From the NCBI GenBank assembly GCA_030613505.1, contig JAUWLW010000021.1, positions 1 through 50,850 on the forward strand: 50,850 nucleotides of DNA, written 5' to 3'. The position numbers and the translations under genes were made by a program. Below the pieces are notes generated by a model. That model saw nothing but the letters and a program-made list of their open reading frames with translations, did no database searches and had not been told where the DNA came from. This DNA comes from Candidatus Zixiibacteriota bacterium (lineage in GTDB: Bacteria > RBG-13-66-14 > B26-G2 > WVWN01). Shown here in pieces: positions 1,116-48,948 of this stretch; the first letter of the stretch is position 1; every line of letters starts with the position of its first letter.

Positions 1116-1826
1116 TCAACTTATTATGCCCAGCCAGTCGCGGAGGAGGAACGTGAGCCGCCCGATGAGTAGGCTCACGCGCGCCATGACGGTGTAGCCG
1201 AAGGAGGCGCCGAAGCCGATCATAAGGAAGACGATGCCGACCCTGGCGACGCCGCCCACGACCCCCTTGTGCTCCGTCGAGAAGAAGAAGTACGTCAACG
1301 TGCAGATTACGCCGACGATCATTAGCGGCCCGGATGTCGCGAGGACGAACCGTGCCCAGCCGGGGTCGCCGAAGAAATTGCCGAAGAGCGTGAGCGAGAA
1401 GACCGGGTTCGCGGCCGTCACGAACGTTCCGTAGATCTGGGCCAGGATAAACGCCTGCATGTAACCGGTGATGGCGATCCCCTGGAATGCGCCGAAGTAG
1501 AAGCCGATGGCCCACCGGCTCATCCAGGCGATTTTGGGGATGAGTCGGGTCAGGATGATAAGGCCCAAGATGCCGGGTACCAACGCGGCGAGGTCGCCCG
1601 TAAGGCCGCCTCCCGTGAATAGCGTTACGAAACCATTTTTTACGGGCGTCAGGAGGTTGGGGACGATAAGGTTCCAGAAGTATATGACGAAAAAGTACCC
1701 GGCCGAGACGCCCACCAGCAAGTGTTCCGCGAACTTGTAGAACGGATTATCCTTGTACAGGAACGAGTAGATACAGAGCGTCAGGGCCGCGGCGATCCAT
1801 ATCCAGATATCGGTCGATACGTGCAT
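1116..1826 (-). CDS. Cassette protein D1: conserved six-TM membrane protein
   Basis: A 236-residue protein with about six TM helices, paralogous to the product of 8742-9458 over its whole length. Shared landmarks are an N-terminal FLYKDNPFYKFAE block after the first helix, GVSAG in the second, a late HKG loop, and a C-terminal FGYTVMARVSLLIGR stretch. No known family is recognised. It is the fourth gene of the A1-B1-C1-D1 set, and the neighbouring genes are spaced 20-40 nt apart, as expected of an operon. A strong GGAGGA sits 6 nt before the ATG at 1826. The absence of Cys or His clusters argues against an electron carrier. The role is probably structural or as a channel in an envelope complex; that is inference. 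Confidence 0.85.
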   Translation of the reverse strand: MHVSTDIWIWIAAALTLCIYSFLYKDNPFYKFAEHLLVGVSAGYFFVIYFWNLIVPNLLTPVKNGFVTLFTGGGLTGDLAALVPGILGLIILTRLIPKIAWMSRWAIGFYFGAFQGIAITGYMQAFILAQIYGTFVTAANPVFSLTLFGNFFGDPGWARFVLATSGPLMIVGVICTLTYFFFSTEHKGVVGGVARVGIVFLMIGFGASFGYTVMARVSLLIGRLTFLLRDWLGIIS

Positions 1827-1862
1827 AAAGTTTCCTCCGCGCGGGAGGGCCGAAGGCCGTCC

Positions 1863-2693
1863 TTACGCCTCGCGCCTCTTAGCCCGTTGTCCTAAGATGT
1901 AAGCGACGTTGCCTAAGACGATGAAAACTACGATGAGGAGGTGGACGATGGTCTGGGCGTCCATCCCCTTGAGGCCTTCGTCGGGCCGCTCGATGAGCTT
2001 CTCGTATTCGGCGGCGCCCTTGAGGCCGCCAAGGAGGCCGACGAGCTGGCCTGTCTGGAGGAACGGGTAGTAATCCGCGGCCATGACGGCCGTCACGCCC
2101 GCGGCGACCTTCTGGCCGTAGCGTTCGTGGCCGTACGCTACCCACATATCCGGGAACGTCGAGCCGGAGAGGGTAACTACCAGGCCGATGTCGTTGTAGT
2201 TCTTGATGTCCTTCATCAGCGGGATCTTGTCGATCGGCGTATTGAAATAATCGGCCGGGAAACTAACGCGGAAATCCTGGCCTATCGAGAGGATGACCGC
2301 GGACGAGCCGACTTTGTAGCCCAGGAAGACGTAATCTTCGCCATATACAGCGCCCGCCTCTTTCGATATCCGGTCGGATATTTCGAGCGCGAGGCCCGGG
2401 CCGCCGGGGTGCAGGACCGTTATGATTACCGGGAGGTCCCGGGCGAAGCAGTGGCGTAAAATGGCCGTCGTCATCGGCGACAACTCCGGCTGCGTGGAGG
2501 GGTCGTAGTCTACCGAGACCAGGACCGGCGTCCCCGGCTCGAGGCTCTCGATTTCGTTGTAGACGTTCTCGACCGGGGGCGACGTCGTAACGGCGAGCCC
2601 GAGCGGGAATAATAACGGCACGATCACCCCGACCGCTACAAGAATGAAGATGTAACGCCGGTCGATGTGTAGGAATTTTTCTATTATATTCAA
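1863..2693 (-). CDS. Cassette protein C1: two-TM protein with large central domain
   Basis: A 276-residue protein with one N-terminal helix (about residues 14-35), a soluble domain of about 200 residues, and one C-terminal helix (about 247-267) followed by a basic tail. Positive-inside reasoning places the central domain outside the cytoplasm. Motifs shared with the paralogue at 9494-10360 are VSVDYDP near the start of the domain, GYKVG in the middle, and LQTGQLVGLLGGLKGAAEYE near its end. The domain is rich in alternating strands and helices but I do not recognise the family. Translation starts at TTG 2693, supported by GGAGGT 6 nt upstream. Third gene of the A1-B1-C1-D1 set. Confidence 0.85.
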   Translation of the reverse strand: MNIIEKFLHIDRRYIFILVAVGVIVPLLFPLGLAVTTSPPVENVYNEIESLEPGTPVLVSVDYDPSTQPELSPMTTAILRHCFARDLPVIITVLHPGGPGLALEISDRISKEAGAVYGEDYVFLGYKVGSSAVILSIGQDFRVSFPADYFNTPIDKIPLMKDIKNYNDIGLVVTLSGSTFPDMWVAYGHERYGQKVAAGVTAVMAADYYPFLQTGQLVGLLGGLKGAAEYEKLIERPDEGLKGMDAQTIVHLLIVVFIVLGNVAYILGQRAKRREA

Positions 2694-2724
2694 CGCGTTA
2701 CCTCCGCGATAAGAGCCGGCGAGG

Positions 2725-3348
2725 CTAGTCGCCGCCGCCCAACCAGGAGCGTTCGATTCCCAGGATGATTTTAAGGGCCATCGAGATGACGCCCAGGCCG
2801 ATGCCGATCATAATGCCGCGCTTCGCCGCCATGTTCGGGTAATCCAAAATCCACTCGGCGAGGTCCGGCAACCATCGGCCGACGACGGACTCGAGCGGCA
2901 CCCGCCCCAACATGACCACCACCGCGGCTACCAGCAGCAGCGTGGCTTCCAGCGTCCGCGCCCGGAACGTCCGGAAGGCGGCCGAGGCGATGAAAAACGC
3001 CAATAGCGAGAACATCGTCGCCTGCATCGGGATCTGGACGTAGTCGTAGAGAACCATGAACGGGCTGTCGGCCTCGATGCCCCACCCGAAACCCGTTACG
3101 AGGGAAGCCGAGATGCCGAAGAGCGCGACGATGCTGTAGAGCCAGTCGCGCCGCCGGTGTTGGACCTTTTGGGCGTGGAGTTTGATGAGGTTTAAGATCC
3201 CCAGGATCATGGCGAAAGTCAGGACGATGATGAGCCACTTCAACATATTGTCGAAGAGCCATTGGGAGTAGGCGTGCGGGATGAAGAACTGCACCGTCAT
3301 GATGATGCCCATTATGAAACAGATGGCGAGGGGTAATTCTCTACGCAT
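2725..3348 (-). CDS. Cassette protein B1: conserved six-TM membrane protein
   Basis: A 207-residue membrane protein with about six helices, paralogous to the product of 10404-11048. Shared blocks are the MRRE N-terminus, GFGWGIE (GIGWGIG in the copy) after the third helix, FALLAFFxASAAxRxFRART around the fourth, and a C-terminal LGIERSxLG. The family is unrecognised and carries no enzymatic motif. GGAGG lies 5 nt before the ATG at 3348. Positioned second in the A1-B1-C1-D1 set, 18 nt downstream of A1. I infer that it is an integral membrane subunit working with A, C and D. Confidence 0.85.
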   Translation of the reverse strand: MRRELPLAICFIMGIIMTVQFFIPHAYSQWLFDNMLKWLIIVLTFAMILGILNLIKLHAQKVQHRRRDWLYSIVALFGISASLVTGFGWGIEADSPFMVLYDYVQIPMQATMFSLLAFFIASAAFRTFRARTLEATLLLVAAVVVMLGRVPLESVVGRWLPDLAEWILDYPNMAAKRGIMIGIGLGVISMALKIILGIERSWLGGGD

Positions 3349-3366
3349 AGATGCCTCCGGACGGCG

Positions 3367-4515
3367 CTAGCCCGCCGTCTCAAATAATTTCGCGAACCGC
3401 AGGCCGAGGTCGGTTGAGAAAATTAATAATATCGTGCCGAGGATTAAAAAGGCCATTATTACGCCCTTGGCCCAATCCTGCCCCTTGAGGCTGCCCAGGA
3501 ACAGGGGGTCCCGCCCGAGGTACGCCGTCGCGGCGTACAGCTCCTCGCCCATCAGCGTATAGTCGCAGGCGGTGATGAAGAACGGCAGCTGCGTTACGCG
3601 GTCGGTCCCGGCGATTTGGATGGCGCCCGTCTCGGCGCCGGTCTCGGCCAGGATGAGCGATTCGGCGTAGAACGCGCCCATGTAGAAGTTGGTCGCCGGC
3701 TTCTCGCGGAGCATGATGCCGTCCACCGCGGCCACGTAGCCGAACTGGGATTGCGTAACGAAGAAGACGGAGTCCTCGTCGAAGGCGTCCGGCTTGCCCG
3801 CCTCGGTGTAAGCCTGTTTCACCATCTCCTTCTCGACGATCATGACGATGGGGTCGTAGCACGGGACGATGAGCGGCGTCTCGTATTCCGCGGTTTTCCG
3901 GGCCACCTTGGCCAGGATCGTCATGGCCGCGATGGTCGCGATATCGGAGGCGTCGCCGAGGCCCGTGACGTAGAGGATAGGCTTGCCCATCTCCGTCGCG
4001 CGGCCGATGGCCTCGTCTACCGCTTCCAGGCCGGCGATCTTGCGGACGAATAGCTCGGCGCCGCCTTTGGCGCGGTAGATGAAGAAGACGATCACGGCCG
4101 TAACGAAGATGACGCCGATCAAGGCGTTGGTTCGCGCCGTATTGAACCACTGGCCGGAGGCCTTGGCCGAGGCCGTGCCCAGGACGACCGCTTTTTCACC
4201 GGCCGCCAGGGCCTGCACCCGGTACTCGTACTCGACGCCGTCTTCAGCCTCTTCGTCCCGGAAAGCGAGTTCGCCCGGGGCGGTCCGGTCGACCTTTACG
4301 AATTCTTTTTCGCCGGAGGCGCGGCGCTGGACCTCGTAACCCGTGAACGCCGCCTCTTTTTCCGCAGCCGCCGGCTCCCACGCGACGTTGACGGCGCCGC
4401 CGGCGTCGTTGGGGGCGTCGCGGGCGGTGACGGCGGGCGCCGCTTCCTCGGCCGCGGCGCACGCGGCCGCGCCCCACAAGAGAAGAGTGGCGAATGCTAG
4501 CGATAGTCTTTTCAT
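3367..4515 (-). CDS. Cassette protein A1: signal peptide, FN3 domain, two TM helices, cytoplasmic domain (DUF6754-like)
   Basis: A 382-residue protein. Residues 1-22 form a signal peptide; about 25-122 form a fibronectin type III-like beta domain with the typical YEVQRR and YEYRVQA strands; about 130-147 are a TM helix followed by basic RAKGG; about 150-345 are a conserved soluble domain; about 350-372 are a second helix. This topology puts FN3 outside and the conserved domain in the cytoplasm. That domain carries IAGLEAV, GRATEMGKP, VDGIM(L/V)REKPA and FYAESLILAETG blocks also found in the paralogue at 11101-12276. I tentatively associate it with DUF6754. AAGGA precedes the ATG at 4515 by 7 nt. 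First gene of copy 1. Confidence 0.87.
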   Translation of the reverse strand: MKRLSLAFATLLLWGAAACAAAEEAAPAVTARDAPNDAGGAVNVAWEPAAAEKEAAFTGYEVQRRASGEKEFVKVDRTAPGELAFRDEEAEDGVEYEYRVQALAAGEKAVVLGTASAKASGQWFNTARTNALIGVIFVTAVIVFFIYRAKGGAELFVRKIAGLEAVDEAIGRATEMGKPILYVTGLGDASDIATIAAMTILAKVARKTAEYETPLIVPCYDPIVMIVEKEMVKQAYTEAGKPDAFDEDSVFFVTQSQFGYVAAVDGIMLREKPATNFYMGAFYAESLILAETGAETGAIQIAGTDRVTQLPFFITACDYTLMGEELYAATAYLGRDPLFLGSLKGQDWAKGVIMAFLILGTILLIFSTDLGLRFAKLFETAG

Positions 4516-4536
4516 AGCTTTATCCTTTGGCGGAAA

Positions 4537-5673
4537 TTAACGCCGGCCCGACTCGATAAGCTCGACGTTGGCGCGCGGGATGACGTCCTTGCCGCCGGCG
4601 TCGAACTTGACGCCCAGCACGCGGACTTTGGATTCGGATTCCAGGACTTGCAGCTCCACCGGCAGCGACGTGACCTCGCCCAGCTTTCCGAAGTACGGCT
4701 CGCGGATGACGCGGACGCGCGAGCCGACCTCCAGGTTGGACTCGTCTTCTTCTTCGGCGCCCACTTTGGCCATTATTTCGCCCGGGCGCGGAATTATTAT
4801 CTCCGGCCTGATTACGCCGGCGCGGATCTGCGTGGCGCCGTTTATCGAGGCGAACATGCCCTCGCAGCAGGCCAGCAGCTCGAAGGTGGCCTCCGCCATC
4901 GGCATCTCGCCGAACCCCTCCGTGACTACCAGCGTGACGCCCAGCGTCTCGTGGCCCGTTATCGCGACGCCGAGGTCGAAACCCAGGAAGTCGCGCAGGT
5001 CGCGGTCGTGGAAGCCGCCCGCGATGACGCCCACCGCGCCCACGGCGATGGCCTTCTTGAGCGCCGCCGCGGTGGCGAGGCTGCCGCCGAGGATTATTTT
5101 GCCCTCGCACTCCGGGCCTATGTCTTCCGGGGCGAGGACGTCGCGGGGGCCGGAGGCGACGGTCTTCACCTCGCCGTACGCCTCGCCGCCGATGCCGAAG
5201 ATCCCCTGGACGAAGGTCCCGACGCACTCCACGTCCACGCCCTCGCTGCCGACGACGTCGACGACGTCGCCGTCAATATAGGCCGTGACGGATACCGCCA
5301 TCGGCGGCTCGCGGACGATGACCTGGCCCGTTATGTTGGAGACGGTCTCGACCGTTCCTTTGACCGGCGACGCGGCCTTGGAGGTGAAGAGGCCGAAGAG
5401 CTGTTTCATCCGGGCGATTACCTGGCCCTCTTCGATCTGCGTCCCTTCCTCCACCAACATGTACTTCGGTATGTCCTCGGGCGGCATGCCGAGCTTGTTG
5501 GCCACGTTCACCGTCTCGACGTTGCCGGGCAAAAAAGTGCGCGCGACGACGTCCAGCGCCTTGACCTTATCGCCTTTTTCGACCAGCACTTCCCCGGCCA
5601 GCGGCAGCCGTCGCTGTTTACGCACCAGCGCCGTCTCGACTACTTTAAGACCCGGGGTGTACGCGTGAGCCAT
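4537..5673 (-). CDS. Barrel-sandwich and KOW-like domain protein of the MutL-linked membrane system
   Basis: A 378-residue soluble protein without TM helices. Residues about 1-140 contain repeated Gly-centred turns (PLAGEVLVEKGDKV, LVEEGTQIEEGQVIA, SPVKGTVETV) typical of biotinyl/lipoyl-type barrel-sandwich hybrids, but there is no modifiable Lys in an MKM-type motif. The middle part is Gly-rich alpha/beta (about 185-290). The C-terminus (about 315-375) reads like a KOW/L24-type beta barrel (GSRVRVIREPYFGKLGEVTS). It has no Cys ligands, so it is not an RnfC-like iron-sulfur protein. It is single copy, 21 nt upstream of A1, and AGGA lies 7 nt before ATG 5673. I infer a cytoplasmic adaptor for the membrane proteins; no specific function is recognised. 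Confidence 0.8.
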   Translation of the reverse strand: MAHAYTPGLKVVETALVRKQRRLPLAGEVLVEKGDKVKALDVVARTFLPGNVETVNVANKLGMPPEDIPKYMLVEEGTQIEEGQVIARMKQLFGLFTSKAASPVKGTVETVSNITGQVIVREPPMAVSVTAYIDGDVVDVVGSEGVDVECVGTFVQGIFGIGGEAYGEVKTVASGPRDVLAPEDIGPECEGKIILGGSLATAAALKKAIAVGAVGVIAGGFHDRDLRDFLGFDLGVAITGHETLGVTLVVTEGFGEMPMAEATFELLACCEGMFASINGATQIRAGVIRPEIIIPRPGEIMAKVGAEEEDESNLEVGSRVRVIREPYFGKLGEVTSLPVELQVLESESKVRVLGVKFDAGGKDVIPRANVELIESGRR

Positions 5674-5684
5674 AACGAAATCCT

Positions 5685-5714
5685 ACTATATGCAACCGGC
5701 CGAGAGGCTATGAA
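5685..5714 (-). promoter_or_regulatory. Candidate internal promoter before the barrel-sandwich/KOW gene
   Basis: On the minus strand a TTCATA box (5714-5709) and a TATAGT box (5690-5685) are separated by 18 nt, in the 75-nt gap upstream of 5673. The -10 box is good and the -35 box weak, so copy 1 may be partly independent of the 12392 promoter. Confidence 0.35.
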
Positions 5715-5748
5715 GCGTGAGCCGGGGACTTTCGGTTCATTACCGCGA

Positions 5749-6441
5749 TCAAGGTCGGGCCGAGGCGGCGTCGGTCAACTCCAGCGTCACCTTGCCCAGC
5801 GGCGTTTTGCCGACGCGCTTGACCAGGGAGCCGTCCTCGGCGAACCAGAACGTCGCGTCGCCGAAGCCGCCCTTGGCCCGCAGGACCTTCGTCGGCACGC
5901 TCTCGCCCTTGGCCTCCAGCGTCTGGTCCGCGACGTACTCTATTTTGGTTTTGCGGACCTTTCCCTTCTCCAAATCGAGCGCTCGGATTTCGATTTTGCT
6001 TCCCGGCGCCGCGAGCTTGGCCAGCGCCTCGTCGGCCTCGACCATGCCGAAAGACGCCTCGGGAATATCCACCGTTTTGACCTTTTCGCCTTTGGTAATG
6101 GTGAACGAGAACCCCTGGGCCGTACGCGTGGCTTTGACTTCGGTCGTCTTGCCTTTCTCGGTTACGGTCGAAGCGTAGTAGACCAGCGTATCGCCGCTGC
6201 GGTAGCGGTCTTCGGTCTGCATGAACGTATATTGGCCCGCCTTATCGCGCCGGGCCGCGGTTACCGTGGTGAATCGCTGCACCACCGCGCCCCCCAGGTT
6301 GGCGCTGCTTGCGACGACGTGGCAGTAACCCACGTGCTTGTCGCCGTCGTATACGGCGTACCACCAGTCGGCGGCCGCAGGCGCGGCGATTAAGCACGCG
6401 AGCACTAAAAAAGCGAACAACGAACCGTATCGGGAAGTCAT
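5749..6441 (-). CDS. Small secreted beta-rich protein, function unknown
   Basis: About 230 residues. A signal peptide (MTSRYGS, hydrophobic core, cleavage near APAAA-DWW) is followed by a beta-rich domain opening with WYAVYDGDKHVGYCHV. Such openings occur in periplasmic or outer-membrane DUF3108- or LolA-like beta domains, but the match is only impressionistic. There is one Cys and no catalytic motif. The start is ATG 6441, with AGGGGG 7 nt upstream, rather than an upstream in-frame codon at 6471. This overlaps the end of the MutL-like gene region closely (stop of that gene at 6458), so the two are translated from one message. Single copy between the two A-B-C-D sets; perhaps the periplasmic partner of the FN3 domains (inference). 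Confidence 0.75.
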   Translation of the reverse strand: MTSRYGSLFAFLVLACLIAAPAAADWWYAVYDGDKHVGYCHVVASSANLGGAVVQRFTTVTAARRDKAGQYTFMQTEDRYRSGDTLVYYASTVTEKGKTTEVKATRTAQGFSFTITKGEKVKTVDIPEASFGMVEADEALAKLAAPGSKIEIRALDLEKGKVRKTKIEYVADQTLEAKGESVPTKVLRAKGGFGDATFWFAEDGSLVKRVGKTPLGKVTLELTDAASARP

Positions 6442-6457
6442 GACGTCGCCCCCTGAT

Positions 6458-8284
6458 TCATGCGGCCTCACTCGAGCCGTGGTTCGGATAAACGTCCAAC
6501 GCGGCCAGCCACCGCTGGAGGGCGTCGACGCGCGCCGTCTCGTCCTGGGGCAGGTTCAGCGGCCGCCCCCGGCAATCGAAGATGACGCCTGCTACGCCTC
6601 CCTCCAGCTCGGCCTCCAAGGTTTGCCCTTTCCCGTGGCCGAGGTCGAAAGGCCGAACCGGGTCCAGCCGGGCCTTCACCCTCTCGTCCACCGCCAGCGG
6701 CAAGCGCGCCATCTCGCCGTATTTTACCTCTTCTTCGACGTGGCCGCGCCCCGGCCAATCGGCCGTGATTTTCAAACAGGTTTGACCTTTTTTACCGTTG
6801 CCCACCGGCGCCACGCACGAGCCCAACCGCACCAGGCAATCGCGCTCGAAGACCTGGGTCGCGGCGTCGGGCATAACGGTGGAGAGAACGCCGAGTTGCG
6901 GCATCATGAATATGGAGTCCACCGCCAGGAACGTCACCGCCTCCGGCCGGAAGCCGTCGATGAGCATGAGCGCGGCCTGGACCCGCCGCGGCGCGTGCGA
7001 CAACGTCCCGCCCGAGCCGACCAGCATATCGAGCGTAAGCATATTGACCAGCGTCTCGCCGGTCATGGTCTGGGTGAAGGCGTCGGAGATGGTCCGCTCC
7101 TGCTGGATACCCTTCAGGCCCACCGCCAGCTCCTTATGCTGGACGAAGGCCAGCCGGAGCGCCTCCCGGGCGATGGCCTGTTCGATGACGAGTTCGGTCA
7201 GCGTCTGCGGTATGGTGGTGGGCCGGATCATCTTGTTCCGGATGCGGTCGCGCAGGTCGCGCTCGTCGAGCTGGGATTTGGGGAAGGGGACCCACCGTAT
7301 TATGTCCGGCAGGCCGGCCTCGGCCAGGACGTTGGAGATGGAGTACGACATCCCCAGGTTGGCGGACACCGTGCGGTTGAACACTTTTTGGAAGACGGAG
7401 AAGATGTCGGTCGTGGCGCCGCCGATGTCGACGCCGATGACCTCGAAGCCCTCCCGCTCCGCTATGGTTTGGATTATGGCGCCCACGGCCGCGGGGGTGG
7501 GCATTATGGGCACCGCGGTCCACGACATCAGCTTGGAATAACCGGGCGCCTGGGCCATGACGTGTTCCATGAAGAGGTTGTGGATCTCGTTGCGCGCCGG
7601 GCCCAGGTTCTCGCGTTCCAGGACGGGCCTGATATTGTCGACGACGTAGAGGGAAGTCTTTTCGCCGAGCGTTCCCTCGATAATAGGCCGCGCGACTTTG
7701 TTGCCGGCGTAGATGACGGGGAGTTGGAAGCCGGCGCCGAAGCGCGGCCTGGGGTCCGCGGCGCCGATGAGCTCCGCCAGCTCGACGACGTGGCTTATGG
7801 TCCCGCCGTCGATGCCGCCCGAGAGTAGTATCATGTCCGGCCTCAGCCGCCGGATGGCCTCTATCTTCTGGTGGGGGAGGCGGCCGTCGTTGGACGCCAG
7901 CACGTCCATGACAATGGCGCCGGCGCCCAGGGCCGCGCGTTGGGCCGACTCCGCGGTCATCGTCTTGACGACGCCCGCCACCATCATCTGGAGGCCGCCG
8001 CCCGCCGACGAAGTGGACATGTAGATGTCGACGCCTTCGTCCTTGCCTTCGGCGACCAGGACTTTGTGGTCGGCGATGAGTTTGCGGCCCGTCAGCTCCT
8101 CCACTTCGCCCACGGCGTTGAGGACGCCGCGGGTGACGTCCTCGGCCGGTTTCTCGACCGTGGTGGGGGCTTCGCCGCGAACTTGCAGGCGGTACTCGTC
8201 GCCCTCCTTTTTTATCAGGATGGCCTTGGTGGTAGTGCTGCCGCAGTCGGTGGCCAGTATGGTTTTTACGTCGGAAAGTTCCAT
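6458..8284 (-). CDS. MutL/GlmL-family ASKHA ATPase, not associated with a mutase
   Basis: A 608-residue cytoplasmic protein of the GlmL/MutL family (actin-like ASKHA ATPase fold). Phosphate-1 motif DCGSTTTK is at residues 13-20, a conserved LLSGGIDGGT segment at about 153-162, and phosphate-2 motif GVDIGGATTD at 284-293. GlmL proteins accompany glutamate mutase (GlmS/GlmE) and are thought to chaperone or reactivate it. Neither mutase subunit nor any cobalamin-binding DxHxxG protein is present in this window. Instead the gene lies between two sets of membrane proteins, so I infer that its ATPase serves that assembly. It is longer than the roughly 460 residues usual for GlmL. A weak purine run precedes ATG 8284. 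Confidence 0.88.
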   Translation of the reverse strand: MELSDVKTILATDCGSTTTKAILIKKEGDEYRLQVRGEAPTTVEKPAEDVTRGVLNAVGEVEELTGRKLIADHKVLVAEGKDEGVDIYMSTSSAGGGLQMMVAGVVKTMTAESAQRAALGAGAIVMDVLASNDGRLPHQKIEAIRRLRPDMILLSGGIDGGTISHVVELAELIGAADPRPRFGAGFQLPVIYAGNKVARPIIEGTLGEKTSLYVVDNIRPVLERENLGPARNEIHNLFMEHVMAQAPGYSKLMSWTAVPIMPTPAAVGAIIQTIAEREGFEVIGVDIGGATTDIFSVFQKVFNRTVSANLGMSYSISNVLAEAGLPDIIRWVPFPKSQLDERDLRDRIRNKMIRPTTIPQTLTELVIEQAIAREALRLAFVQHKELAVGLKGIQQERTISDAFTQTMTGETLVNMLTLDMLVGSGGTLSHAPRRVQAALMLIDGFRPEAVTFLAVDSIFMMPQLGVLSTVMPDAATQVFERDCLVRLGSCVAPVGNGKKGQTCLKITADWPGRGHVEEEVKYGEMARLPLAVDERVKARLDPVRPFDLGHGKGQTLEAELEGGVAGVIFDCRGRPLNLPQDETARVDALQRWLAALDVYPNHGSSEAA

Positions 8285-8333
8285 ATCTTCAACGGGTACC
8301 GGTGTTCCCGGCGGCGTTGGGGCCGTCTCCCCG

Positions 8334-8687
8334 CTATCGCTTTTTTCGGCGTTTTTTCTTTTCTTCTTTCATCTTCGCCCGCCACTCGGCGTCGTAGCTT
8401 TCGATGGCGGCCAGCAGGCGTTCGACGTTCTCCCGTTCTTCCAGCGCCAGCCGTACGTCGTTGTACCCTCGCAGGTTGAAGATCGACCGGACCAGCGGGT
8501 CGAAGAAGACCATCACTTGTGAGCCGATAAACGAGAGGGGTTTGGTGGACTCCAAAAAGAAGATCGCGGGCGCCGTCAAGCTACGCTCGACGATGGCTCG
8601 GGCGATTTTCCCGATTAACTCGTCGCGCCTCTCGGTCGAGAGTTCGCCGTAATCGGGTTCGCCGGTGGCTTCGAAAAGGCGAGGCAT
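8334..8687 (-). CDS. Small conserved basic protein of the MutL-linked cluster
   Basis: A 117-residue protein. The centre (about 38-75) is a hydrophobic, Gly/Pro-containing segment (TAPAIFFLESTKPLSFIGSQ) that could associate peripherally with the membrane. It is followed by an acidic helix with ENVERLL and a strikingly Lys/Arg-rich tail (KKKRRKKR). No known domain is recognised. It is single copy between D2 and the MutL-like gene, with a 49-nt gap to the latter, and on the same strand. The basic tail suggests binding to membrane phospholipid, nucleic acid or an acidic partner; that is inference. No strong Shine-Dalgarno is visible before ATG 8687. Confidence 0.75.
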   Translation of the reverse strand: MPRLFEATGEPDYGELSTERRDELIGKIARAIVERSLTAPAIFFLESTKPLSFIGSQVMVFFDPLVRSIFNLRGYNDVRLALEERENVERLLAAIESYDAEWRAKMKEEKKKRRKKR

Positions 8688-8741
8688 AAGCGCGGTTGTT
8701 AGGCTTGCGGCGGGAGAGCCGACTTTACGTTATTCCCGTCC

Positions 8742-9458
8742 TTACAACAATCCCAGCGCTATGAGGGTCTCTTTTATCCAGTCGTCGATCAAGAACTCCA
8801 TGCGGCCGATGAGGAGCGAGATGCGGGCCATTACGGTATAGCCGAAGGCGGCGCCGAACGAGACCATCAGGAACCAGATACCCAACCGCGCCGTTCCTCC
8901 CAGTAAGCCTTTGTGTTCCTTCGAGAAATAGAAGTACACCAGCGCGCTCACGACGCCTATTATCAGAAGCGTATTGGCTACGGATGCCCCCCAGTCGAAG
9001 TGCCACCCGGTCGCGCTTTCCGTTATGACGATGGGCGACAGCTGGACTGTTCCCCAAATTTGATAGATGCAGTTGGCCTGGAGGTATACGATGAACATCA
9101 GGCCCGCGCCCAACCCCACCGAGAACGCGATGCCGTACCGCGAGACCCACGCTACCTTGGGGAAGAAGCGGAACAGCATCGTTATGCCGAGGAGGCCGGC
9201 GATTACGGTCAGCAACCGGATGTCCAGCTGGCCTTCCCGGACGAGCTTCGGGAACGCGCCGTCGGCGCCGAAGAGCGGGTCGATCAGGTTCGGCACGAGC
9301 AGGTTGTGGAAATTGTACGCGATCCAGAAGCCCGCCGAGACGCCTATGAAGAGGTATTCCGCGAACTTGTAGAACGGGTTGTCCTTATATAGGAACGACA
9401 GGATGCACAGCGTCAAAAACGCCGCGATCCAAGTCCCGAATAACGTAAGGCCGTCCAT
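8742..9458 (-). CDS. Cassette protein D2: conserved six-TM membrane protein
   Basis: A 238-residue paralogue of the product of 1116-1826, with helices at roughly 7-24, 36-54, 80-97, 105-125, 157-177 and 188-210. The FLYKDNPFYKFAE block and the C-terminal FGYTVMARISLLIGR stretch are almost unchanged between copies, while the loops around residues 55-75 and 130-155 diverge. That pattern suggests conserved subunit contacts and copy-specific loops. GGAGG is 7 nt before ATG 9458. Fourth gene of the A2-B2-C2-D2 set and followed directly by the small basic protein and the MutL-like ATPase. Function unknown. Confidence 0.85.
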   Translation of the reverse strand: MDGLTLFGTWIAAFLTLCILSFLYKDNPFYKFAEYLFIGVSAGFWIAYNFHNLLVPNLIDPLFGADGAFPKLVREGQLDIRLLTVIAGLLGITMLFRFFPKVAWVSRYGIAFSVGLGAGLMFIVYLQANCIYQIWGTVQLSPIVITESATGWHFDWGASVANTLLIIGVVSALVYFYFSKEHKGLLGGTARLGIWFLMVSFGAAFGYTVMARISLLIGRMEFLIDDWIKETLIALGLL

Positions 9459-9493
9459 GGTTGCGCCTCCGAGGGGGAAACCCGCCGCCGGCT

Positions 9494-10360
9494 TCAGGCC
9501 GAGGTCGGCGGTCGGGCCGTCGGCCCTCCGCTCCCCTCCTCGCGTTTCCTGCGCAATATAAAGTACGAGATGTTCGCGAACAAGATGAAGACGATAATGA
9601 CGACGTGCGCCACCGACTGCGAGTCCATGCGGGGCGAGGCCTTGCCGGCGTACGCCGTCACGGTTTCGTATTCCGCGGCGCCTTTAAGGCCGCCCAACAG
9701 GCCTATGAGTTGCCCCGTTTGTAAATATGGGAAGAACTGCGGCGCGGACACCGCGGTGCAACCGGCGGCGGTTCTGGTTTGGAAGAGGGCGTTGGCGATA
9801 ATTACCCATTCCGTGATGCCGGGGACTCCCGCGGAGAGGTCCATGACGAGGTCGACGTCGTAGAGGTTGCTTACATCCTCCATAAGCGGCAACGTCGCCG
9901 TCGACCGGCCGGCCATGTCTTTCGGGAAGATTTCCGCGAAAGAATTCCCGAGCGATTTGATGACGATGGCGCCGCCGGGTTTGTAGCCCAGGTTGACGTA
10001 GTCGCGGCCGTACTCCAGGTCGAAATCCCGGTTAATTTCGGCCATGGCGCTCACCGCCATCTGGGCGCCTTGCGGCCACAACGCCATAATTATTACCCTG
10101 TGTTTTTTCTGGAAGCAGTGGTGGAGGAAGGCCAAGGCCATGGGGTGGACTTCAGGCGCCGCGGCCGGGTCGTAGTCGAACGACACCAGGACGTTCGACC
10201 CCCCCGGCAGATTTTCCACCTCGTCGTAAATAGTTTGTGTCTGGGGGGTTACTTTCACGCGCATGCCGAGCGGGAAGAGGAGCGGGACGACGACGGCCAC
10301 GGCGATTACCACGAAGATAATACGGCGGTCTATATCGGCCAGCCAACGGACGAATTTCAT
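9494..10360 (-). CDS. Cassette protein C2: two-TM protein with large central domain
   Basis: A 288-residue paralogue of the product of 1863-2693: an N-terminal helix (about 12-32), a central domain of about 200 residues, and a C-terminal helix (about 245-265) followed by a basic and Ser/Gly/Pro-rich tail longer than in copy 1. Conserved landmarks are VSFDYDP, GYKPGG, and a nearly identical LQTGQLIGLLGGLKGAAEYE. The ATG at 10360 is chosen over a TTG nine bases upstream because GGAGG lies 9 nt before the ATG but directly abuts the TTG. No family is recognised. Topology suggests an extracytoplasmic central domain. Confidence 0.85.
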   Translation of the reverse strand: MKFVRWLADIDRRIIFVVIAVAVVVPLLFPLGMRVKVTPQTQTIYDEVENLPGGSNVLVSFDYDPAAAPEVHPMALAFLHHCFQKKHRVIIMALWPQGAQMAVSAMAEINRDFDLEYGRDYVNLGYKPGGAIVIKSLGNSFAEIFPKDMAGRSTATLPLMEDVSNLYDVDLVMDLSAGVPGITEWVIIANALFQTRTAAGCTAVSAPQFFPYLQTGQLIGLLGGLKGAAEYETVTAYAGKASPRMDSQSVAHVVIIVFILFANISYFILRRKREEGSGGPTARPPTSA

Positions 10361-10403
10361 CGGGGGCAACCTCCCGCGACTCGTTGCGAACCGCTCGCCA
10401 CGG

Positions 10404-11048
10404 TTATTCTTCTCCCAGGTACGACCGCTCGATGCCGAGTAGTATCCGCAGCGCAGTCGATACCACGCCCAGCGACGCGCCGATCAGGATGGCGCGCTGG
10501 CCGGCGGTGTTGAAGATGTTCATTATACGGTCCTTGAGCCAGTCCGGCGTCAGGAAGACGAGCGAGTCCGGCCACCACGACGGCACCCAGATGGAGCCTA
10601 TGGGCACCTGGCCCAGCATGACGATGACGGCCGCGACGAGGAGGAGCGTCGCGTCTACGGTCCGGGCCCGGAACGCCCGGTACGCCGCGGAGGCCACGAA
10701 GAACGCCAGGAGCGCGAACATGGTGGAGGACATGGGGAACATCAGGTAGTTGAACAGCCAGTCGAAAACCGTTCCTTGTCCGATCCCCCAACCGATGCCG
10801 ACGATTGTCATAGCGAAGAGGCCGACGATGAGGACGATGGAGTAGGGCCAATCGACCCGGCGGCCCCGCACCTTCATATAATTCATGCGAAGGAGGTTAA
10901 ACGCGCCCACCAGGATCGCGAAAGCTACCACGACCAGGTACCATTTCTGGAGTTGACCCGCGACGTTACGGAGCGTCGGTACGAAGAACTCGAGTATTAT
11001 TATTACGCCCGCGACGAAGGCTACGATCATCGGTATCTCGCGCCGCAT
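10404..11048 (-). CDS. Cassette protein B2: conserved six-TM membrane protein
   Basis: A 214-residue paralogue of the product of 2725-3348, with about six helices (roughly 5-24, 35-53, 69-88, 103-125, 132-148, 185-205). The MRRE start, GIGWGIG, the FALLAFFVASAAYRAFRART block and the C-terminal LGIERSYLG are shared. AAGGAGG lies 6 nt before ATG 11048. Second gene in the A2-B2-C2-D2 set, 52 nt after A2. There is no recognisable transporter, protease or enzyme motif; I infer that it is a membrane subunit of the same complex. Confidence 0.85.
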   Translation of the reverse strand: MRREIPMIVAFVAGVIIILEFFVPTLRNVAGQLQKWYLVVVAFAILVGAFNLLRMNYMKVRGRRVDWPYSIVLIVGLFAMTIVGIGWGIGQGTVFDWLFNYLMFPMSSTMFALLAFFVASAAYRAFRARTVDATLLLVAAVIVMLGQVPIGSIWVPSWWPDSLVFLTPDWLKDRIMNIFNTAGQRAILIGASLGVVSTALRILLGIERSYLGEE

Positions 11049-11100
11049 ACCCGGCCTCCTTGCCGGAGAGTTCCGCCGCGAAAAAGCCGCCGGAGAGCGG

Positions 11101-12276
11101 CTACTTCACCACGAAGAGTTGTTCCAGGGCGATGGATCGCCCGAAGATCTCGACGCCGAATTGCGCCAGGAACGCCGTCACGACGCCCAAGATTATAGAG
11201 ATTAGTATTACTACCTTACCCCAGTCTTGCCCCACCAGGCTCCCCAAGAGCCGGGGTTCGCGGCTGAGGTAGGCGCTGGCCGCGAACAGCTCTTCGCCGA
11301 TGAGGGTGTAGTCACAGGCCGCGATGAAGAAGGGGAGCTGCGACGGCATCGCCGTCCCGGCGATTTGTATCGCGCCTATGGAGTGGCCGGTCTCGGCCAG
11401 GATGAGCGATTCCGCGTAGAACGTCCCGAGGTAGAAGTTGGCGGCGGGCTTTTCGCGCACCATGATGCCGTCCACGCCGGCGACGTAGCCGAACTGGTCG
11501 TCGGTGAGGTAGCTGATGTTTTCGCGGCGGTAGGCGTCCGGGCGACCCGCCTCCAGGTACGCTTCTTTGACCACCTCTTGCGCGGTGGACATCACCAGCG
11601 AGCGGGAACACGGCACCAGCAAGCTCGCGTCGTACTCCGCCACCATAGTGGCCACCCGGCCCAGAATCGTCACCGCGGCGATGGTCTGAATGTCGTCGAT
11701 ATCGGCGATACCCGGCACGAACAGCACAGGCTTGCCCATCTCCGTGGCGCGGCCTACCGCTTCCTGTACCGCTTCCAGGCCGGCGATGCGGCGGATGAAG
11801 AGCACCTTACCGGCGCGGGCCTGTGAAATGTAATACAGGATGAACGCCGAAAGTAAAACGGCGGCGATGAGCATGTTGAGGCGGTTCGGATGGAACCATT
11901 CCCGCGTCGCCTTGGCCGGCCCCACCGGCGCCGTATCTGTGCTCATCTCCTCGCCCCGTACGCGTACTTTATAGAAGTACTCGACGCCGTTTTCGGCCTC
12001 TTCGTCCGTAAAGTTATAGCTTTCTTTGCCGGCCTCGACGTCGGCCAATTTCTTGTAATCGCCCGCGGGGCGTCTGGCCCGCCATACCTCGTAGCCGAGG
12101 ACCTTTACTTCGGCCTCGAGTTCGTCCGGCGACGGCGCCCACGTTACGTCGATCGAGCCGCCGGCGTCCACCGCTTTGTCCGCCGCGGCCGCGTTCTCGG
12201 CGGTACGCAACGTCTGACCGTGCGCCGCGGCCGTTAACGCCACAGTCAATAATAGTACGGCGTACGCCGACTTCAT
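11101..12276 (-). CDS. Cassette protein A2: signal peptide, FN3 domain, two TM helices, cytoplasmic domain (DUF6754-like)
   Basis: A 391-residue paralogue of the product of 3367-4515: signal peptide (about 1-20), FN3-like domain (about 30-125), TM helix near residue 140, a conserved cytoplasmic domain of about 200 residues, a second helix near 350-370, and a short tail. The cytoplasmic domain is the best conserved part between copies (IAGLEAV, GRATEMGKP, FGYVAGVDGIMVREKPA, QLPFFIAACDYTL). Start ATG 12276 has GAGG 8 nt upstream; a GTG at 12285 is less well placed. It is the first gene after the promoter at 12364-12392, so it heads the likely operon running to the MutL-like ATPase and beyond. 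Confidence 0.87.
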   Translation of the reverse strand: MKSAYAVLLLTVALTAAAHGQTLRTAENAAAADKAVDAGGSIDVTWAPSPDELEAEVKVLGYEVWRARRPAGDYKKLADVEAGKESYNFTDEEAENGVEYFYKVRVRGEEMSTDTAPVGPAKATREWFHPNRLNMLIAAVLLSAFILYYISQARAGKVLFIRRIAGLEAVQEAVGRATEMGKPVLFVPGIADIDDIQTIAAVTILGRVATMVAEYDASLLVPCSRSLVMSTAQEVVKEAYLEAGRPDAYRRENISYLTDDQFGYVAGVDGIMVREKPAANFYLGTFYAESLILAETGHSIGAIQIAGTAMPSQLPFFIAACDYTLIGEELFAASAYLSREPRLLGSLVGQDWGKVVILISIILGVVTAFLAQFGVEIFGRSIALEQLFVVK

Positions 12277-12576: not shown

Positions 12577-12996
12577 ATGGCACGGAGATCCCAGAAGCGG
12601 CGCATAGCCGACGTAGAATACGGTTCTTACATCGCGAACGGAGCCGAGGTTCGGGGCGCGTACCGTGGAAGAACGAATTTGCTCATCGCCGGCGCCCTCC
12701 GCGGCGACGTGGAGGTGGACGGGACCGTTATGATCACGACGCCGGCGGGCGTGAGCGGCGGCGTCTCTGCGGTAAACGTGGTCGTTTCCGGCCGCGTCGA
12801 GGGGGACGTTAACGCCCGCAAGGTGGCCGAGATACGGCGGAAGGCCGTTATAAAGGGTAGCGTCGTAGCCCGGGAAGTGTACGTCGAAGTGGGCGCCCAG
12901 GTGGGGGGCGAGATAATCGCCCACGGTAAACGCGGCGTGACGTCTTACCGGGAGCGACGCCGCGCCATGGAAGCGGCTCGGGCCGGGGGCGAGTGA
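12577..12996 (+). CDS. Bactofilin-family cytoskeletal protein
   Basis: A 139-residue protein with a basic, non-hydrophobic N-terminus, a central right-handed beta-helix type region (about 17-115) built of short repeats with regularly placed Gly, Val and Ile (GALRGDVEVDGTV, SGRVEGDVNARKV, KGSVVAREVYVEVGAQVGGEI), and a charged tail. This is the DUF583/bactofilin pattern: proteins that polymerise without nucleotide and scaffold cell-wall or envelope machines. It is divergently transcribed from the duplicated membrane system through a matching promoter, which makes a functional link possible but not shown. ATG 12577 has no strong Shine-Dalgarno. Confidence 0.82.
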   Translation: MARRSQKRRIADVEYGSYIANGAEVRGAYRGRTNLLIAGALRGDVEVDGTVMITTPAGVSGGVSAVNVVVSGRVEGDVNARKVAEIRRKAVIKGSVVAREVYVEVGAQVGGEIIAHGKRGVTSYRERRRAMEAARAGGE

Positions 12997-47379: not shown

Positions 47380-48948
47380 TTACTTCGGCGTCATAGTCGC
47401 GACCGGCAGCACCAGCTCCGGCAGCGAGACGCCGCCGTGATAAAATCCCCCTTCGAAGCGCCGGTGGTACTCGCGCAGGTGATGGGAGAAGACGAGGTGA
47501 TGGCTGCCCTGCGCCAGTACGTACGTCTTGGCGAGGTAATCGTCGGGGAGGCCGAAGGCCTCGGGGTGGCGCACCAGGAAGGCCCCCTCGCCCTCGGGGC
47601 GGAGGTCGCGGCCTACCCAATACCGCGGCGTCTTAGTCGCGTCCTTGTCGGCGTACACCACAGCCGGCGTGTCGGTAAGCGTCGAGCCGTGGTCCGAGGT
47701 AAGTATCACCGTTGCGCTCTTATCCTCGGCGATTTTTCTTAGCAGCTGCTCGAGCGGTGAGCCGAGGTACCAGGTGAGGGCGAGGCGGGGTAGCGCTTCG
47801 GCCGTGGGGACGAGCGAGTTCAGCGCGCCGCCCGGGCCCGACTCGTGCGTAACGGTGTCGATGAAATTGAAGACGAACGCCGTGAAGGGGCGCGGCGACA
47901 GCGTGTCGATTATCTTGCGGGCTTTCTTCTCCTGCTCGCGGTTGGCGAATTTGTAGTAGCGGATCTTTTTGGCCTTGGGTGCGTGTCGCGCGGTGTGGTC
48001 GGAGAGGAATTGTTCCTCGTAGCGGTTCAGCGACTCCCCCTGGCCGCCCTCTTCGCGGAAGTTCTCCTTATACGCCGCCGCGATCTCTGCCGGCTTCTTC
48101 CCGGCGAAGATGGCGTTGCGGGCGTACAAGGTAGACGAGGGTACGGCGCCGCAGTATAACGACCGCTCGATGCGGTACAGCTGCCCGAGCCGCTCCTCGA
48201 GTAACAACCATTGGTCCAGACGAAGGCAGTCGACGACGACGAAGTAAACCGGGCGCCCGGTCGCGATCTGGGGGAGGGCGAACTTGTCCAGGACGTCCCA
48301 CGAGAGGGGTGGCGCGTCTTCCGCCCCCGCCACCCACGACGGGTATTGCTCGCACGCGAACGCGGCGAAAGTCCTGTCGGCCTCCGCAACCAGCTCGTTT
48401 TGCAAGGGCGCCAAAGCCCGGAGTGTCAATTCGCTTATCTCGCGTTGGGCGCGGCATATATCCAGGTAAAGGTCGGCCCAGTCGCGGAACGTGGCCGCCG
48501 GGTCGTTTATGACGCGCTGCGCCCGGTTGTAGTATTCTCCCCACGACCCCACGAACCGGTCGCGCCGGAGCTGTTCGATGTCTAGGACTTTTTTAAGCGA
48601 AGACAGGATCTGGTGGGGGTTCACCGGTTTCACCAGGAAGTCGTCGATCTCGCCGAAGTAGGCGTCGTCCATCAGCGTCTCTTCGGTCGACTTGGTGACC
48701 ATAATTACGGGCAGCGACGCGTCCACCGCCTTGAGCTCCCGCAGCGTCTCGATGCCGTCCATCCCCACCATTATCTCGTCCAGGAGGACGGCGTCGAAGG
48801 ATCGCTCCTTCACCAACGCCACGGCGTCCGGGCCGTTGGTCAACGTCGTCACGCGGTAACCGTGGTTCTCCAGGAATTGGATCTGTGACTTCAACAGGTC
48901 TATCTCGTCGTCGACCCACAGGATTTCGGGACGTCGTGCTTCGGCCAT
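47380..48948 (-). CDS. porX: PorX-like response regulator with PglZ phosphodiesterase domain
   Basis: A 522-residue two-domain protein. Residues 1-125 are a receiver: acidic pair D13/D14, phospho-acceptor D57 (AVLLDEIM), T85 and K107 (VKPV). Residues about 190-515 are a PglZ/alkaline-phosphatase-type domain with D240 (VVVDCLRLDQW), nucleophile candidate T273 (PSSTLYARNAIF) and D419-H420 (TSDHGS). This is the PorX layout; in Bacteroidetes PorX works with the kinase PorY, and the PglZ domain is a phosphodiesterase that switches on type IX secretion genes. The FlgD-like tail of the M28 peptidase would fit such export, but type IX structural genes are not in the window. It starts a few bases after aspS. 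Confidence 0.85.
   Translation of the reverse strand: MAEARRPEILWVDDEIDLLKSQIQFLENHGYRVTTLTNGPDAVALVKERSFDAVLLDEIMVGMDGIETLRELKAVDASLPVIMVTKSTEETLMDDAYFGEIDDFLVKPVNPHQILSSLKKVLDIEQLRRDRFVGSWGEYYNRAQRVINDPAATFRDWADLYLDICRAQREISELTLRALAPLQNELVAEADRTFAAFACEQYPSWVAGAEDAPPLSWDVLDKFALPQIATGRPVYFVVVDCLRLDQWLLLEERLGQLYRIERSLYCGAVPSSTLYARNAIFAGKKPAEIAAAYKENFREEGGQGESLNRYEEQFLSDHTARHAPKAKKIRYYKFANREQEKKARKIIDTLSPRPFTAFVFNFIDTVTHESGPGGALNSLVPTAEALPRLALTWYLGSPLEQLLRKIAEDKSATVILTSDHGSTLTDTPAVVYADKDATKTPRYWVGRDLRPEGEGAFLVRHPEAFGLPDDYLAKTYVLAQGSHHLVFSHHLREYHRRFEGGFYHGGVSLPELVLPVATMTPK

Follow-up and report, generated by a model that had tools for sequence, protein, structure and literature searches.

A stretch of 50,850 nucleotides of Candidatus Zixiibacteriota bacterium DNA (contig JAUWLW010000021.1 of assembly GCA_030613505.1; the whole stretch is here referred to as the window) carries a four-gene membrane cassette, A-B-C-D, twice, in identical order and on the same strand, inside a 12-gene same-strand run at 1116-12276 that also encodes a MutL-type ASKHA ATPase (Pfam MutL, PF13941, which is distinct from the mismatch-repair MutL). 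We propose that the locus specifies one system in which MutL and a partner protein, KOW, constitute an ATPase that switches or assembles an envelope complex of A, B, C, and D, a reading to which we assign a probability of about 0.4. The odds appear roughly even that it represents an envelope machine of a class not yet described, one whose four-subunit inner-membrane complex is driven or cycled by a MutL-type ASKHA ATPase together with a barrel-sandwich adaptor. Such a machine would serve a core function in Armatimonadota, Coatesbacteria, and a dozen further diderm phyla, most of them uncultured, and would come in two ancient paralogous types of complex, I and II. That the genes belong to one system is supported by their content, order, co-occurrence, and evolution as a unit, by intact ATPase motifs, and by the fusion of MutL to a KOW-like part in a paralogue.

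The reading frames of both sets and of the four intervening genes lie at the expected coordinates, all on the minus strand. The 12 genes are co-directional with short gaps or none, which suggests one transcription unit, and are as follows (TM, transmembrane segment; pLDDT, predicted local distance difference test score):

11101..12276, minus strand: A1 (type I set), with signal peptide, predicted extracytoplasmic FN3 domain, TM, predicted cytoplasmic DUF6754 alpha/beta domain, and TM
10404..11048, minus strand: B1, predicted six-TM protein with N terminus inside, no Pfam family over cutoff
9494..10369, minus strand: C1, TM, predicted extracytoplasmic Rossmann-like domain, and TM; fold taken from paralogue C2
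8742..9458, minus strand: D1, about six predicted TM, C-terminal motif GA(S/A)FGYTVMARISLLIGR
8334..8687, minus strand: SMALL, basic protein of 117 amino acids, one copy per genome, core component
6458..8284, minus strand: MutL-type ASKHA ATPase (PF13941), nucleotide motifs intact
5749..6471 (probable start 6441), minus strand: secreted beta-rich DUF6134-like protein, a genus-specific operon insertion outside the core
4537..5673, minus strand: KOW, soluble, with a barrel-sandwich (lipoyl-like) N-terminal part and an SH3/KOW-like end, core component
3367..4515, minus strand: A2 (type II set), FN3 and DUF6754, like A1
2725..3348, minus strand: B2, predicted six-TM protein
1863..2693, minus strand: C2, like C1; AlphaFold2 model with mean pLDDT 96.6
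1116..1826, minus strand: D2, like D1

A preliminary description of this DNA had claimed that the four-gene set is duplicated with order and strand preserved, and comparison of set 1 with set 2 by BLASTP bore this out, with identities of 44-53%. A is 53% identical over 328 amino acids (E value, 2e-121), and B, C, and D are 48% (3e-66), 44% (6e-63), and 50% (3e-67) identical over nearly their full lengths, a likeness far above chance. Its tentative mention of DUF6754 (PF20539) was likewise correct: A belongs to this family, at 416 bits for A1 and ~400 bits for A2 (399-416 bits overall) against a cutoff of 27. It could name none of the other membrane families, in keeping with the lack of any Pfam family over cutoff for B, C, and D; among the window proteins, these three, SMALL, and KOW match no Pfam or NCBIfam family over cutoff. 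A bactofilin gene (PF04519; plus strand) lies divergent from the operon and is not among its conserved neighbors in other phyla.

A scan of named genomes returned at least 571 relatives, and the best 80 loci were taken into profile searches. These recovered A-B-C-D in unchanged order, in 1 to 3 tandem sets, from genomes labelled with ~15 candidate phyla: Edwardsbacteria, Latescibacterota, Fermentibacteria, Stahlbacteria/WOR-3, TA06, Zixibacteria, Poribacteria, Eisenbacteria, Armatimonadota, Cloacimonadota, Gemmatimonadota, CSSED10-310, UBP2, and others, the phylum labels of metagenome-assembled genomes not all being reliable. Complete A-B-C-D cassettes numbered 104 among the relatives listed. 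Several phyla share the run order SMALL-MutL-KOW-(A-B-C-D)n, from which the window departs in having its first set upstream of SMALL. L032 (G005:C1:379001-399000) comes from a near-complete assembly of a close Coatesbacteria relative in the window's genus and has the part between mid-MutL and D2 in inverted orientation; runs of N stand at both breakpoints, inside MutL, and we attribute the inversion to a probable scaffold error rather than to a real rearrangement.

The window genome groups with Candidatus Coatesbacteria, where A (1 to 3 copies per genome) and MutL each occur in 13 of 14 genomes and KOW occurs in all 14. MutL and KOW adjoin in most of these, even where A-D lie on another contig. 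Among 50 genomes of other phyla picked for having A-D, 47 gave a MutL match, which reached at least 380 bits in 45. MutL, KOW, and SMALL are mostly single-copy, as against 1 to 3 cassettes per genome, and the gene for MutL frequently lies at a distance from A-D; MutL is thus a genomic partner of the cassette and not an obligatory neighbor. The preliminary description had named scattered A-D genes without a MutL-like neighbor as the pattern that would speak against a single system. What we observed is a conserved block with MutL nearly always in the genome, and the single-system reading stands.

Armatimonadota provided a further count of this association. Across 205 species, DUF6754 and this MutL are each present in 192 and KOW is present in 194, and ten genomes lack all three. 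DUF6754 and MutL are found together in 189 species, with 3 + 3 discordant and 10 having neither; the corresponding figures are 191, 1 + 3, and 10 for DUF6754 and KOW and 192, 0 + 2, and 11 for MutL and KOW (Fisher p of 3e-12 to 2e-16 for the two-way tables, kinship ignored). The three genes are often hundreds of kilobases apart or on separate contigs, so linkage does not explain their co-occurrence. These data bear on the view that there is no common system and that A-B-C-D, on the one hand, and MutL-SMALL-KOW, on the other, are housekeeping genes with no connection that adjoin by chance in some lineages. MutL and KOW do lie far from A-D in many genomes, and the surroundings are housekeeping and variable, as that view would have it. 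The joint absence from the same ten Armatimonadota, the way SMALL is linked, depending on the phylum, either to MutL or to A-B-C-D, and the recurrence of the joint operon in several phyla largely refute it, and we regard it as very improbable. From the claim of a single system around one ATPase we therefore keep the widespread A-D block, MutL in 13 of 14 Coatesbacteria and 45 of 50 other genomes, and concerted presence and absence in Armatimonadota, and we drop MutL as a fixed neighbor.

The core consists of SMALL, MutL, KOW, and (A-B-C-D)n, often with a small membrane protein, E. SMALL is present in exactly one copy in 37 of the 38 genomes tested and adjoins MutL in most; in Armatimonadota it instead heads an operon SMALL-A-B-C-D. 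E, which comprises a hydrophobic hairpin and a soluble domain, immediately precedes SMALL in Armatimonadota and at loci L049, L050, L056, L060, and L103 (examples include L183:10124-10618, L185:8752-9276, L187:8645-9133, and L050:3338-3781, among others). It matches no Pfam family over cutoff and was not found in the window. Apart from E, no extra neighbor is common to several phyla, the surrounding genes being housekeeping and variable. The secreted beta-rich protein matches DUF6134 at 34 bits. Among the relatives profiled, DUF6134-like proteins occur only in the window's own genus, and we left this gene out of the core for that reason. Co-occurrence of all 12 genes, which the preliminary description had proposed to check, thus holds for SMALL, MutL, KOW, and A-D and fails for the beta-rich protein.

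The ATPase matches PF13941 over the whole profile (1-450 of 450; 414 bits, cutoff 27). In the alignment, its ASKHA phosphate 1 (D13, G15-K20), phosphate 2 (D286, G288-D293), and adenosine (G423, G425, G426) motifs are invariant, with the strings DCGSTTTK (in most), DIGGATTD, and GSGG. Against the NCBIfam GlmL/Or-4 models, the window MutL scored 221.7, 196.4, and 165.8 bits, all under the respective cutoffs of 475, 600, and 204.05; it thus falls far under the curated GlmL and Or-4 cutoffs and also under the GlmL family cutoff, as does the Fimbriimonas MutL. Glutamate mutase (PF06368) was over cutoff in 0 of 14 Coatesbacteria; ornithine aminomutase was not searched for. The scores and the missing glutamate mutase rule out a glutamate-mutase accessory protein. 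Of the original designation as a MutL/GlmL-type ASKHA ATPase, the whole domain and the intact motifs remain, and membership in GlmL/Or-4 does not.

Hydropathy over the alignments gives neither SMALL nor KOW a TM segment. The barrel-sandwich stretch of the window KOW stays under cutoff for RnfC_N (19.4 bits; cutoff, 25.6) and for a second model (16.9; cutoff, 25), while one Armatimonadota relative just reaches RnfC_N (25.9; cutoff, 25.6). No CxxCxxCxxxC iron-sulphur motif is present in the KOW sequence or alignment. An internal TGA in KOW relatives was considered as a selenocysteine codon and rejected: in the two checked (L142 and L143), the codons are stops at gene ends. Joint action of MutL and KOW is best supported by a natural fusion in a MutL paralogue at L044:17777-20536, a 920-amino-acid chain with MutL at 10-474 and a KOW-like part from ~565 to 915 (E value, 9e-18). 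Several genomes carry a MutL paralogue (~41-45% identical in Coatesbacteria) beside the main MutL, e.g., G012:C59 and G003:C1:898119-899804.

We derived the topology of the membrane subunits from hydropathy and charge averaged over the alignments. For A, these place the FN3 domain outside and the DUF6754 domain, by prediction, inside, where most of the invariant polar residues of the alignment fall (R158, R172, E175, Q300, C317, D318, Y319, E324, E325, and D347). The FN3 stretch ahead of DUF6754 scores under the Pfam cutoff in A2 (21 bits; cutoff, 25), and the A family profile also matches FN3 chains, down to an E value of 4e-36. In the predicted model of A (pLDDT, 93.2), residues 28-121 superpose on a solved FN3 domain (Z, 12.4; root mean square deviation [rmsd], 1.8; 89 residues aligned), which confirms the FN3 fold at the level of the model. 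FN3 took up the match list of the fold search with this model, and no fold was named for the DUF6754 domain. B shows six hydrophobic peaks and is predicted to span the membrane six times with its positive loops inside; D shows about six. C has two TM segments either side of a domain of ~210 amino acids that is predicted to lie outside, with the positive N terminus (IDRR) and C terminus (RR) inside, and the polar residues H250 and N261, both conserved, sit within its last TM helix. The AlphaFold2 model of C2 is Rossmann-like. Foldseek gave one match under 0.001 for C, and the best VIA-align match was the epsilon subunit of carbon monoxide dehydrogenase/acetyl-CoA synthase (Z, 10.0; rmsd, 3.1; 145 aligned), with TrkA at a Z of 9.5. 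These matches are weak, unspecific, and of a common Rossmann arrangement, and we dropped any family identity for C based on them. A and C are alike in the order of their predicted secondary structure; a homologous origin for the pairs A/C and B/D, as in a dual-topology arrangement, finds no support in profile comparison (hhalign, 6.4% and 0.3%) and was discarded. In one Coatesbacteria family (L034, L036, L037, and L038), additional copies of C follow D in tandem, which suggests diversification of the extracytoplasmic subunit.

The architecture of A-D and the nature of its ATPase bring in the two main rivals of the clamp that we favor. One is a directly energized exporter or inserter, in which ATP hydrolysis by MutL-KOW powers each cycle of transport of a lipid, glycan, or protein through a B/D core. 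B and D together supply about twelve TM helices, A and C add large soluble domains inside and outside, an ATPase partner is present, and the parallel paralogous sets recall substrate-specialized transporters. However, no transporter family was found in Pfam or NCBIfam, ASKHA proteins are to our knowledge not transport motors, and a MutL that is often unlinked and single-copy would be unusual for a stoichiometric motor; we consider the exporter unlikely, while taking it seriously. The other, which we hold distinctly doubtful, sees A-B-C-D as a membrane-bound enzyme that bears a labile cofactor or adduct, with MutL-KOW acting as its reactivase in the manner of adenosylcobalamin mutase accessory proteins. 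The PF13941 ancestry of MutL, the resemblance of the KOW barrel sandwich to lipoyl/RnfC-type carrier domains, and the many invariant polar residues that the cytoplasmic part of A holds, reminiscent of a ligand site, would fit such an enzyme, but no cofactor-binding family is recognized in A-D, none of the 14 Coatesbacteria has glutamate mutase over cutoff, and the Rossmann-like matches of C are weak and unspecific.

The two sets of the window belong to two old lineages. Trees of 106 cassettes separate type I (with window set 1) from type II (with window set 2), a split that leaves out four divergent second sets (L049, L050, L056, and L060) and two FN3-less cassettes (L026 and L029). The remaining 100 cassettes are divided identically by the separate trees of all four genes, with 0 misplaced versus ~30 in label shuffles; support for the dividing branch is moderate (0.76-0.85) and lower, at 0.20, when the genes are concatenated. 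Ten of the listed loci carry both types, with type I ahead of type II. The four genes of a set thus predate, as a unit, the divergence of the phyla, as expected if they form one complex without exchange of subunits between types. The preliminary description had left a choice between one hetero-oligomer and two complexes built from paralogous sets; the sets are indeed paralogous, and the trees favor two parallel complexes over one mixed complex. Most Armatimonadota cassettes lack FN3 and form an outer group. In two Coatesbacteria genomes, L026:1-2844 and L029:6504-10152 represent a third, FN3-less cassette type that is near-basal beside the Armatimonadota cassettes.

From these data we infer an A-D complex, a docking site, a use for ATP, and a task in the envelope as follows. 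MutL and KOW would form a soluble cytoplasmic pair and A, B, C, and D an inner-membrane complex, with SMALL as a small core component that possibly links the two. The pair would dock on the cytoplasmic DUF6754 domain of A, and an ATP-driven clamp movement, favored by analogy from the nature of the ASKHA family, would assemble, load, or reset the membrane complex. The latter may work in the envelope via the extracytoplasmic parts of two subunits, FN3 in A and the Rossmann-like domain in C, and one MutL-KOW-SMALL set would serve 1 to 3 parallel A-B-C-D complexes. Four points weigh against this proposal. MutL is absent from a few cassette-bearing genomes, mostly draft assemblies. The ten triple absences in Armatimonadota form about four runs of neighboring entries and probably reflect about four losses, the counts being uncorrected for kinship. 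Loss of the outer membrane does not account for loss of the system, since holders and losers both keep Omp85 (36 of 36 Armatimonadota tested, losers included). Finally, the known relatives of MutL are soluble mutase accessory proteins, and we know of no precedent for one driving a membrane complex.

Elsewhere in the window (47380-48948, minus strand), this Coatesbacteria-like genome encodes a response regulator fused to a PglZ domain, an architecture like that of PorX, the type IX secretion regulator in Bacteroidota. Concerning the operon itself, a role in anti-phage defense was rejected, as eight proteins gave no PADLOC match at an E value of 0.01.

The system comprises at least seven gene families, is found in nearly all Armatimonadota (192 of 205 species), and occurs in 13 of 14 Coatesbacteria, yet it is unnamed and most of its subunits lack a Pfam family. 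Its near-universality suggests a core cell-envelope function across a large part of bacterial diversity, and it would extend the MutL/GlmL ATPases from a mutase accessory role to membrane biology. A genome that we take as that of Fimbriimonas ginsengisoli Gsoil 348 (putative identification) carries E-SMALL-A-B-C-D (L188), MutL (L195), and KOW. This organism is a cultured, Gram-negative soil bacterium (PMC4072686), and a cultured isolate with a complete genome makes laboratory tests possible.

Several known systems share parts with this one. PilM-PilN-PilO of type IV pili and GspL likewise pair an ASKHA-fold cytoplasmic protein with small membrane proteins, and since the ASKHA proteins FtsA and PilM scaffold membrane complexes, MutL might position the envelope complex in a cytoskeletal or divisome-like scaffold that includes the bactofilin (PF04519) at 12577-12996. 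We find this improbable: MutL scores 11.8 bits against a PilM cutoff of 133, the locus has no pilus genes, A-D are not PilN/O/P-like by Pfam, and the bactofilin falls outside the conserved neighborhood. KOW shares its barrel-sandwich stretch with RnfC and NqrA; unlike them, it is under cutoff, lacks the CxxCxxC motif, and has no Rnf/Nqr partners in the locus. A is a member of DUF6754, a family without an assigned function. In the literature searched, which left most subscription papers and preprints outside its scope, we found nothing on DUF6754, PF20539, or the cluster and no described system of the same composition. The closest relatives of the ATPase, GlmL and Or-4 (accessory proteins of methylaspartate mutase and ornithine aminomutase), share with it the full PF13941 domain as well as the ASKHA motifs, whereas the window MutL lies under their curated cutoffs, occurs in a group without glutamate mutase, and has KOW, SMALL, and membrane proteins as its genomic partners.

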